Assembly (NCBI RefSeq): GCF_011682235.2
Contig: NZ_CP076718.1
Span: 4,433,095 to 4,497,094 of the forward strand
Direction: 5' to 3'
Source of the DNA: Rhodocaloribacter litoris
GTDB lineage: Bacteria > Bacteroidota > Rhodothermia > Rhodothermales > ISCAR-4553
DNA length: 64,000 nucleotides
Shown here: piece by piece, positions 31,571 to 35,079 of the stretch
How positions within the stretch are numbered: position 1 is the stretch's first letter
How the letters are laid out: each line of letters opens with the position of its first letter
Made by a program: the position numbers and the translations under genes
The notes under the pieces: model-generated
What the model was told of the DNA's origin: nothing
The model's input: only the letters and a program-made list of their open reading frames with translations
Database searches by the model: none

Positions 31571-32182
31571 ATGCAGGACGAACTGACGGTTCATGACATC
31601 GTCGGACGCGGGGTTTCACTGGACGTATACCGCGCCCGGTGGCAGCAGGACCTGGCACGCCCGCTGCGGGGACTCGACCGTACCGCACGGCGCTACCTGC
31701 ACTATGCCCGCTACAACTGGGAACGCTATCACCGGGTCTTCGAGCAATATGAGCCGTCACAGGCGTTCAGGGCCGTGCTGGAGCGTATCACGTCGCCGCA
31801 GGACTGGCTGGTGATCACCGAGGACTGGTGCGCCGACGCAGCGTACAGCCTGCCGGTGTTCGCACGGGCCGCCGAAACGAACCGGCAGGTCTGGTTGCGC
31901 CTTGTCCGCCGCGACGAGCATCCAGAGGTGATGGACCGCTATCTGACGAACGGCGCCCGGGCGATTCCGAAGCTGGTGGTGTTCGGCGCCCGCGGTGACG
32001 AGTTGTTCCGCTGGGGTGCGAAGCCGGCGGCGCTGTACCGGCTCCGGGAAGACTGGAAAGCCCGCGGCATTGAGGGACATGAGCTCTCGAAGGCGACGAT
32101 CGCCTGGTACGAGTCCGGCGGCTGGCTCGAGGTGGAACGCGAGCTGGCGGCCTTGCTGGAGACTACGGCGGTGCGGGGTTGA
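31571..32182 (+). CDS. Thioredoxin-fold protein with a single active-site Cys
   Basis: A 203-residue cytoplasmic protein with thioredoxin-like elements: DWLVITEDWCADAAYSLPVF as the strand-active site-helix, and the cis-proline motif ARAIPKLVVFG. The usual CxxC is WCADA, so only the first cysteine remains. This is also common in the 'EDWCGDA' family of bacilli and Bacteroidota, so it may not be a dithiol oxidoreductase. The N-terminal ~60 residues are helical and Arg/Tyr-rich. GTG at 31559 is an alternative start. It is a lone gene between the receptor operon and the dif-like site. Confidence 0.75.
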   Translation: MQDELTVHDIVGRGVSLDVYRARWQQDLARPLRGLDRTARRYLHYARYNWERYHRVFEQYEPSQAFRAVLERITSPQDWLVITEDWCADAAYSLPVFARAAETNRQVWLRLVRRDEHPEVMDRYLTNGARAIPKLVVFGARGDELFRWGAKPAALYRLREDWKARGIEGHELSKATIAWYESGGWLEVERELAALLETTAVRG

Positions 32183-32209
32183 CAGGCTGCGGAAAAGATC
32201 GTATCCTGT

Positions 32210-32237
32210 ACCTGTGATAAGGATAGTTATCAAGGGT
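32210..32237 (+). other. Candidate dif-like Xer recombination site
   Basis: A 28-base block fits the dif plan: left arm ACCTGTGATAA, 6-base centre GGATAG, right arm TTATCAAGGGT. The inner arms GATAA and TTATC are inverted repeats, matching the ATAA...TTAT core of E. coli dif. The outer parts match dif poorly. It lies in the short AT-rich gap before the HNH/tyrosine recombinase genes. The adjoining TATCAA-ggg-TTGATA palindrome means an operator for those genes is an alternative reading. Confidence 0.35.
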
Positions 32238-32263
32238 TGATATCTACTAACTCAAAAAAGCCC

Positions 32264-32872
32264 ATGCATCTCGGCGAGATCGAAGCCCTCCTTGAAGACG
32301 ACCGTTGCCGTGCCCAGCTGGCCCGCCTGACACCGCCGGAGACAGCCCCCGCGCAGCCCGACCCCGCCGCGTGCGACTGGCGGTTCGTTGAGACCCCGGA
32401 CGGGCTGCTCCGGGATTACGTGGTCTCCACCGGCGGGCACGTGCTTTCTCTGCCGCGCTACCGTCGTTACCGCCCGGCCTCCGGCTCGTCCCGTGTCGCA
32501 CACCGCAAGTTCCAGCCCGGGCGGTTTCTGCGTCCCGGTCGCCATCCCGAAGGGTTCCGTACCGTGGTGTTGTACCGGGACGGCCGGAAGGAGCCGTTTT
32601 ACGTGCACCAGCTCGTGGCCTGGACATTTCTCGGCCCGCAGCCACCCGGTCACGTCATCCGCCATCGGGACGGCAACCCCGGCAACAACACGGCGGACAA
32701 CCTCGAATATGGCCCGGCATCGCCCCGCCTGCACGCCGGTGTGGCCGGGAGCGTGTGCGACCGGGAAAGGCAGTTGCGACAGGCCGTCCGGGAAGCGCTC
32801 GACGGCCGGCGCGATGTCCACCGGGTACTCGGCGAAGTGCTTGACTATCTCACGGAAAAATGTGAAGCATGA
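32264..32872 (+). CDS. HNH endonuclease (NUMOD4/HNH_3 type)
   Basis: A 202-residue protein with a NUMOD4-like segment (YVVSTGGHVLSLPR, residues ~52-65). An HNH_3 nuclease motif follows: VHQLVAWTFLGP with His115, then VIRHRDGNPGNNTADNLEYG with His134 and the NN pair at 141-142. Such proteins are usually free-standing homing or phage-type nicking endonucleases. The last residues overlap the start of the tyrosine recombinase by four bases (ATGA), so the pair is translationally coupled. ATG 32264 is chosen over an upstream TTG because of the family start. It is probably mobile-element derived, but no element ends are visible. Confidence 0.8.
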   Translation: MHLGEIEALLEDDRCRAQLARLTPPETAPAQPDPAACDWRFVETPDGLLRDYVVSTGGHVLSLPRYRRYRPASGSSRVAHRKFQPGRFLRPGRHPEGFRTVVLYRDGRKEPFYVHQLVAWTFLGPQPPGHVIRHRDGNPGNNTADNLEYGPASPRLHAGVAGSVCDRERQLRQAVREALDGRRDVHRVLGEVLDYLTEKCEA

Positions 32873-33822
32873 TGAAAGACGATGCTCTTGTTCCGCGCGG
32901 TTCGCCTGCATCACTTTTGACCCCGGCCTATGGCGATCAGAACCTCTTGGAACTTTACCTCCTGAAGTTCGATAGGGCCAGAACGAAAGAAGCTTACCGG
33001 CGTGATTTGAAGGATTTTTTTGGCACTGAATTTGTCGATTTAAATATTACAATGTCTGTTGATTTCGTCCGGGTCAACGAATATGTCGGCGCTCTTGAAA
33101 GGAGCGGATATAAAGCCTCCACGATAAAACGAAAACTTGCAGCCATACGTGGTTTCTTTGACTGGCTGATTGCGCTTGGCGTACTACAGCAAAACCCGGC
33201 GCACCGGCAACTCGTCCGCAAGGTTCGCCAGGTGGACCGGAAGAACCGGCGCATTCTTTTCCTCTCTGCCGAGGAGGCCCGCCGCCTGGTCGAGGCCACG
33301 GCGGCCAGCGGGGCGGCCCACCTGCGCGATAGGGCCCTGATCCTGACGCTGCTGCACTGTGTGTTGCGTCGCTCGGAGGCCGCCGCGATGGACGTGGAAC
33401 ATCTGCGCCCGCTCGGGCGGTACTGGGTGCTCGACATCCCGCACGCGAAAGGTGGAGCCGACCAGTACGTCAAGGTCCCGGATCACGTTGTGGAGGAGAT
33501 CGAGCGCATGAAACGGCATTACGGGATCACGACGGGCCCTCTCTGGCGTTCCCTGAGCCCGAACAACCGCGACGGCCGGCTTTCCCCGCATTCCATCTAC
33601 ACCATCGTTCGCACCGCGGCCGGGCGGGCCGGGTTGCCCCGCATCGGAGCACACACGCTCCGGCACACCGGCTGCACACTGGCCATCGAGGCGGGGGCCT
33701 CCATCCAGCAGGTCCAGAACCATGCCCGCCATAAGAGCATTGAAACGACGATGGTCTACGTCCATCAGCGGGATCGGCTGCGGGACAGCGCCGCCGACTT
33801 CATCCACATCGACGACGTGTAG
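32869..33822 (+). CDS. Tyrosine recombinase (XerC/D-like integrase)
   Basis: A 317-residue tyrosine recombinase with all catalytic positions: Arg167 in VLRRSEAAAM, Lys194 in HAKGGADQY, His262-x-x-Arg265 in AHTLRHTG, His288 in ARHKS and the nucleophile Tyr297 in MVYVHQ. Residues ~25-115 form the SAM-like core-binding domain. The DNA for residues ~40-105 is clearly AT-richer than the catalytic half, suggesting a mosaic history. It is coupled to the HNH gene and lies ~0.6 kb from a dif-like palindrome. It could be a chromosomal Xer protein or an integrase left by an element; only one such gene is present here. Confidence 0.88.
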   Translation: MMKDDALVPRGSPASLLTPAYGDQNLLELYLLKFDRARTKEAYRRDLKDFFGTEFVDLNITMSVDFVRVNEYVGALERSGYKASTIKRKLAAIRGFFDWLIALGVLQQNPAHRQLVRKVRQVDRKNRRILFLSAEEARRLVEATAASGAAHLRDRALILTLLHCVLRRSEAAAMDVEHLRPLGRYWVLDIPHAKGGADQYVKVPDHVVEEIERMKRHYGITTGPLWRSLSPNNRDGRLSPHSIYTIVRTAAGRAGLPRIGAHTLRHTGCTLAIEAGASIQQVQNHARHKSIETTMVYVHQRDRLRDSAADFIHIDDV

Positions 33823-33824
33823 CC

Positions 33825-34172
33825 ATGGCACTCAACTTCTTCCGCACACCGGTTCCCGGTATCCCGGTAGAACGACTCAAAAGCATGCTCGATCATGGCG
33901 AAGAATTTGTTCTTATTGATGTGCGAGAACCGAACGAGAGGAACATCGCCAGCATTGGCGGAACGAACGTGCCGCTTCAGAAACTTCCGGACACGATAGA
34001 AGACGTAGTTGAAGACAAAGAAACCAGGATCGTTGTCTACTGCCGCTCGGGTTCGCGTTCGGCCCGCGCTGTCGAGTACATGCGGGCAATGGGCTACAGG
34101 AACGTGGTAAATCTGGAAGGAGGTATTCTGGCCTGGATAGAACGCATCGATCCCACGCTCACGCCTTATTGA
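33825..34172 (+). CDS. Rhodanese-like sulfurtransferase
   Basis: A 115-residue single rhodanese domain. LIDVREPNERNIASIGG and the active loop CRSGSRSA, with the persulfide cysteine, match single-domain GlpE/PspE-like enzymes that move sulfur to thiol acceptors. There is no signal peptide, so it is cytoplasmic. It starts two bases after the recombinase stop. GC content is visibly below the window average. miaA begins 13 bases downstream, so the genes 32264-35079 may form one transcript, but sulfur transfer to tRNA by this protein is not shown. Confidence 0.9.
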   Translation: MALNFFRTPVPGIPVERLKSMLDHGEEFVLIDVREPNERNIASIGGTNVPLQKLPDTIEDVVEDKETRIVVYCRSGSRSARAVEYMRAMGYRNVVNLEGGILAWIERIDPTLTPY

Positions 34173-34185
34173 TCGTACCGGTTTG

Positions 34186-35079
34186 ATGGGTGATATATCG
34201 GTAGATCTGGAAATACCCGTGATTGCAGGGCCGACGGCCACTGGCAAGACCTGGCTGAGCATCGAGCTCGCAGAGCGTGTCGGCGCAGAGATTGTCTCGG
34301 CGGACAGCCGCCAGGTGTACCGTGGTCTGGACATCGGAACGGCCAAACCGACCGTCGAGGAACGCCGGGGCATTCCCCACCACTTCATCGACGAGTTGGA
34401 GCTGGAGGTCCCCTTCTCAGCCGGCCGGTTCGCGGCGGCGGCCCGTGAACGTATCCGCTCGATCCTGGAGCGTGGCCGTCTTCCGGTTGTCGTCGGCGGA
34501 TCGACCCTCTACCTGCATGCCCTGATCCATGGCCTGCCCGACCTTCCGGAGGCCGATCCCGACCTCCGGCACGCGTTGAACCAGCGGCTGGCACGCGAGG
34601 GCGGCGAGGCGCTGTATCGGGAACTGCAGCGGGTCGATCCCGGGTTTGCCGCCACGCTCGATCCCACGAAGACGCAGCGGCTCGTGCGCGGGCTCGAGGT
34701 GTACTACGCCACCGGCCGGCCGCTGTCCAGTTTCCCCACGACGCCTCCGGAACCCGGGTTTCGGTATCGGGTCGTCGTTCTGTGCCGCGATCGGAAAGAA
34801 CTGTATGCCCGCATCAACGCGCGCGTCGATGCCATGATCGAGGCCGGTCTCGTCGACGAGGTGCGCGCCCTGGCCGCACAGGGATACGACGAGCGGATCA
34901 ATGCCCTGAACACCATCGGTTACAGGGAGGTTTTTGCACACCTGCGTGGGGAGATCCCCTTCGGGGAGATGGTCCGGCTCATCAAGCGGAACACCCGCCG
35001 GTATGCGAAGCGGCAGATGACTTGGTTTCGCCGGTATGGTTTTGTTTCTTACAATAACGGCTATGACCTGCTTTTGTAG
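34186..35079 (+). CDS. miaA: tRNA dimethylallyltransferase
   Basis: MiaA adds the isopentenyl group to A37 of tRNAs reading UNN codons. The 297-residue product has the P-loop AGPTATGKT near residue 16, SADSRQVYRGLDIGTAKP, the DPTKTQRLVRGLEVY block and the C-terminal KRNTRRYAKRQMTWFR. It starts at ATG 34186. The last residues YNNGYDLLL are encoded over copy 5 of the 12-mer repeat, and the final 19 bases overlap the end of folB on the other strand. The assignment is secure. Confidence 0.95.
   Translation: MGDISVDLEIPVIAGPTATGKTWLSIELAERVGAEIVSADSRQVYRGLDIGTAKPTVEERRGIPHHFIDELELEVPFSAGRFAAAARERIRSILERGRLPVVVGGSTLYLHALIHGLPDLPEADPDLRHALNQRLAREGGEALYRELQRVDPGFAATLDPTKTQRLVRGLEVYYATGRPLSSFPTTPPEPGFRYRVVVLCRDRKELYARINARVDAMIEAGLVDEVRALAAQGYDERINALNTIGYREVFAHLRGEIPFGEMVRLIKRNTRRYAKRQMTWFRRYGFVSYNNGYDLLL
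35049..35060 (-). repeat. 12-mer repeat copy 5 (3' end of miaA)
   Basis: Reads CCGTTATTGTAA on the minus strand followed by gAAACAAAA. It lies inside the last codons of miaA and is opposite in direction to copies 1-4. Confidence 0.85.

Follow-up and report, generated by a model that had tools for sequence, protein, structure and literature searches.

The window analysed here (the whole stretch of 64,000 nucleotides, G000:C1:4433095-4497094) contains a 28-bp inverted repeat followed by an HNH_3 endonuclease-like gene, a tyrosine recombinase gene, a rhodanese-domain gene and a miaA-like gene, which lie on the same strand with short gaps and form one apparent operon (Table 1). The sigma-70-like promoter ends 2 bp 5′ of the 28-mer, and the recombinase gene overlaps the HNH_3 gene by 4 bp and starts 631 bp downstream of the 28-mer, in agreement with the roughly 0.6 kb given in the initial annotation. 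Genes related to the HNH_3 gene occur in G034, G093, G025 and G095, weakly in G085, and are missing from most other genomes. Only here and in part of the relatives does it stand between the site and the recombinase, which suggests that it is a homing-type gene inserted into the putative dif module.

Table 1. Coordinates of the features at the locus (positions within the window).
Feature	Position	Strand	Basis
Sigma-70-like promoter, TTGACA-17-TATCCT, abutting the dif site	32179..32207	+	Sequence
Probable dif site, 11-6-11, ACCTGTGATAA GGATAG TTATCAAGGGT	32210..32237	+	Conserved; skew maximum; TGATAAN6TTATCA unique
6-bp central region between presumed recombinase-binding arms	32221..32226	+	Low information content; 35 distinct sites
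HNH_3 endonuclease-like gene, separating the site from the recombinase gene	32264..32872	+	Family match
Tyrosine recombinase, 317 aa, presumed cognate Xer	32869..33822	+	Full catalytic residues
Rhodanese-domain gene, next in apparent operon	33825..34172	+	Domain
miaA-like gene, next in apparent operon	34183..35079	+	Named from reading the translation

The 28-mer has two inverted 11-bp arms (32210-32220 and 32227-32237) around a 6-bp centre, and the 11-6-11 block with GATAA and TTATC flanking GGATAG lies exactly where it had been placed. Its outer arms had been described as weak; they are better than that, with pairing at 4 of 6 outer positions and at 9 of 11 positions overall. The window holds three blocks with 9/11 pairing and a perfect inner 5/5, and the one at 32210-32237 is the only one with an AT-rich core, the remaining two being GC-rich; local shuffles of the window sequence predict 0.1 AT-cored blocks of this kind. 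The half-site of E. coli dif is TTATG, compared with TTATC in the right arm here. Across the whole genome (one contig, 4,502,320 bp), TGATAAN6TTATCA occurs once and GATAAN6TTATC twice. The second GATAAN6TTATC match, at 1823535, was rejected; its outer arms are poor and no recombinase was found adjoining it. The E. coli-like pattern RATAAN6TTATNNNAA has a single AT-rich match, at 686111, which is not a candidate. Genome-wide pattern searches, which bear on the concern that a better dif might lie elsewhere, thus found no better candidate. A second palindrome that had been proposed, TATCAA-ggg-TTGATA, does exist and overlaps the 28-mer (32228-32242), but it is not conserved, even in the nearest relative, G018.

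The 28-mer lies at the switch of GC skew. In 469 contiguous kb, with the contig taken as circular, the cumulative G-C maximum falls 2.8 kb from the 28-mer, and the cumulative value 0.2 kb before the 28-mer is at most 6 counts below that maximum. In sampled stretches, the skew is positive over the arc that runs from ~2.7 Mb up to the window; from there round to ~2.5 Mb it is mostly negative, apart from two samples at 1.1-1.4 Mb with weakly positive values. The motif GGGNAGGG flips its polarity at the same place: counts to the left and right of the 28-mer are 73 and 23 in the forward orientation and 23 and 53 in the reverse. These values bear out the earlier placement of the block between the skew and repeat flips. 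Both GGGNAGGG and GGGGAGG point mostly toward the 28-mer from either side, with cumulative maxima no more than ~4 kb away, and as sequences they resemble the guide motifs of FtsK (KOPS-like); the genome also encodes an FtsK gamma domain. The single site at the terminus has counterparts elsewhere in the order, in that the recombinase locus is at the +/- skew switch also in Roseithermus (G034), G113 and G066, and in G037 (Rhodothermus) the skew switch lies within ~0.1 Mb of the recombinase locus.

The 317-aa protein has the complete catalytic set of a tyrosine recombinase (R167, K194, H262, R265, H288 and Y297) and is presumably the cognate enzyme of the site. It falls below the equivalog cut-offs of all the Xer models compared: XerC (114 bits against 335), XerD (112 against 330), XerA (112 against 220) and XerS (48 against 267). 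By sequence, its nearest solved structures are XerA and XerD; the top-scoring solved chain carries the unrelated name RaiA and was disregarded. Besides this protein, the genome's tyrosine recombinases comprise an integron-type enzyme and an apparent fragment of one, several mobile-type integrases and an Xer-like paralogue without catalytic arginines, so no genomic rival makes a better canonical Xer. As read from the sequence, the integron-type integrase lies at G000:C1:3197392 (L002) and the apparent fragment of another at 2842564 (L009).

To see how far this arrangement extends, we can turn to the 114 genomes of the Rhodothermales, in which a profile search found the recombinase family, here called type A, in 63 genomes and 27 of 49 genera; at the threshold used it is missing from 51 genomes, some of which have a type-B recombinase (below) instead. 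A block resembling GATAA-N6-TTATC lies upstream of six of six good recombinase relatives from named records. Upstream regions were read for 51 type-A members, of which 48 were of usable length; 40 of these 48 contain an 11-6-11 site, and 35 contain the exact GATAA-N6-TTATC core within 1.5 kb, compared with 0.04 expected. In the 35 distinct sites, the GATAA/TTATC core is invariant or nearly so and the 6-bp centre, like that of Xer sites, is poorly conserved. Because site detection was conditioned on a TAA-N6-TTA core, only the outer arms and the position provide independent tests. The outer arms match each other at 3.83 of 6 positions within a site, compared with 2.41 (sd 0.19) between shuffled sites; the arms change together, the pattern that one protein binding both arms would give. 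The recombinase upstream regions of the Rhodothermus group (G036, which we take to be Rhodothermus marinus, G037 and G041), of G051 and of second paralogues yielded no such site, and neither did the stretches read around the G037 terminus. Over the order as a whole, the block is kept next to the orthologous recombinase, the conservation on which the initial annotation had staked its proposal. The presence of two further, GC-rich 9/11 palindromes in the window might have hinted at a chance palindrome by a coincidental skew flip, but with the exact core in this many upstream regions such a coincidence is refuted and scarcely merits credence.

The position of the site relative to its neighbours bears on whether the palindrome is only an operator, through which either the recombinase or some dimeric repressor controls the HNH-xer-rhodanese-miaA operon. 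The promoter that ends just 5′ of the 28-mer is what such an operator would lead one to expect, and in several relatives the site likewise abuts or overlaps promoter-like sequence; a similar promoter, TTGACA-TATACT, lies just 5′ of the site in G108 and G110-G113. Most genomes have 4 to ~280 bp between site and recombinase. The distance rises to 600-1300 bp in several genomes with an intervening gene and to ~4 kb in G022, where a large gene on the opposite strand separates the two. The site is thus adjacent to a promoter here and yet kept 600-4000 bp from the recombinase gene in G034, G025, G093, G060 and G022, which weakens the simple form of the operator reading that had been left open. The fixed 11-6-11 spacing with a variable 6-bp centre, the position at the skew maximum and a half-site sequence that tracks the recombinase type (below) also argue against it, and we consider a purely regulatory palindrome improbable. 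Since the site abuts the operon promoter, binding of the recombinase there may additionally autoregulate its own operon.

A palindrome beside a tyrosine recombinase, with an HNH gene between them, could also be used by a mobile element or DNA-inversion system bearing the recombinase, as its attachment or crossover site. However, TGATAAN6TTATCA is present in a single copy in the genome, so there is no flanking repeat of an element, and across most of the order a genome carries one copy or a few copies of the core. The recombinase gene, moreover, is widespread in the order and sits in an apparent housekeeping operon at the terminus. This origin is very unlikely, even more so than a purely regulatory role.

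The order also differs from a sample of its phylum in its Xer complement. Canonical XerD scores over the cut-off in 0 of 114 genomes, compared with 131 of 148 in a phylum sample, where the XerD model mostly matches two copies per genome. Part of the order carries the type-B recombinase (L151-L157), a second single-recombinase lineage, with upstream sites of the form CATAA-N6-TTATG (for example, ATGTAACATAA CAATAA TTATGTTACAT) at 7 of 10 inspected loci. The half-site tracks the recombinase: GATAA/TTATC accompanies type A and CATAA/TTATG accompanies type B. In the tree the types form one group each, with support of 100/99 for B and only 81/28 for A. Type-A and type-B genes adjoin in G101 and G043. 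In Salinibacter-like genomes, the type-A protein is without its tyrosine and the histidine of HxxR (read in G066, presumably Salinibacter ruber, and G062), the site remains, and a further recombinase gene directly follows the Tyr-less one (L145, L146 and L147; G066:C1:1873799-1876260); that of G066 looks type-B-like and has intact catalytic residues. Taken together, the A/B pairs and the Tyr-less type A look like recombinase turnover at the dif locus. Two palindromes, spaced by 34 bp, stand upstream of the type-A gene in G066 and G065.

The Xer-like paralogue mentioned above (G000:C1:3014663-3015586; L005, L225) has orthologues in 106 of the 114 genomes. Every orthologue read is missing both catalytic arginines (GLSE.E, HSLTH) and keeps the histidine and tyrosine. 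In G035, G037, G112 and G113, this paralogue and the dif-linked enzyme are the only tyrosine recombinases. A combined scenario can be proposed in which XerC/XerD were lost, a lineage-specific dif-linked recombinase took their place with at least one later replacement accompanied by a change from GATAA to CATAA, and the arginine-less paralogue acts as a non-catalytic partner in the synaptic complex; as a joint claim this is doubtful, and we offer it only tentatively.

These results support the earlier proposal of a dif site at the terminus, as the site is conserved beside an orthologous recombinase and the skew switch coincides with the locus here and in three further genomes. We conclude, with a probability of about 0.9, that a single-recombinase Xer system resolves chromosome dimers at the terminus and that the 28-mer is its dif site on the chromosome; in an order without XerC/XerD, this task appears to fall to one dif-adjacent recombinase. 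Mechanistically, two pairs of the recombinase encoded at 32869-33822 would bind the 11-bp arms of dif on the sister chromosomes, the two dif sites would synapse and strands would be exchanged over the 6-bp centre. This exchange would resolve chromosome dimers at the terminus ahead of division, with the FtsK translocase probably bringing the sites together along the polarised GGG(N)AGGG motifs.

Several known Xer systems share parts of this arrangement. The present one is like XerS/difSL of streptococci and lactococci and XerH/difH of Campylobacter and Helicobacter in having one recombinase and a gene-linked site (PMC5357621). However, difSL spans 31 bp around an 11-bp centre and XerS has 356 aa (PMC5357621), as against 28 bp, a 6-bp centre and 317 aa here, and XerH, at 354-362 aa (PMC5357621), differs in length. 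Archaeal XerA/dif likewise has a single recombinase, a 28-bp 11-6-11 site and polarised motifs toward dif (PMC5357621); in contrast to it, the present system is bacterial, is accompanied by an FtsK gamma domain and reaches 112 bits against the 220-bit XerA cut-off. XerL/dif of the Legionellales, compared here by its published description, is also a one-recombinase system in one order without XerC/XerD and has long symmetric arms, but in L. pneumophila dif and xerL lie >400 kb apart (PMC9765430), whereas here they are adjacent. With XerC/XerD-dif of E. coli and other Bacteroidota, the system shares an 11-6-11 site at the terminus, the fold family and FtsK gamma, but that system has two catalytic recombinases, and the XerC and XerD cut-offs are missed here by ~220 bits. 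On these comparisons, the best reading is a single-recombinase Xer/dif module that would be analogous to XerS/difSL and XerH/difH and would lie outside those families.

Almost every sequenced eubacterium is described as having XerC/XerD and FtsK (PMC5357621), and dif was predicted in 19 of 19 Bacteroidetes (Kono 2011; PMC3025954). Among openly licensed papers, with Kono 2011 covered at the level of that count, we found no report on a dif/Xer system in this order. Single-recombinase systems are known from few groups, and an order-wide replacement in the Bacteroidota would be a further case. The terminus of these genomes gains a firm dif coordinate, and because each of the two site types goes with its own recombinase type, comparative work can address arm specificity as well as how a basic recombination system turns over.
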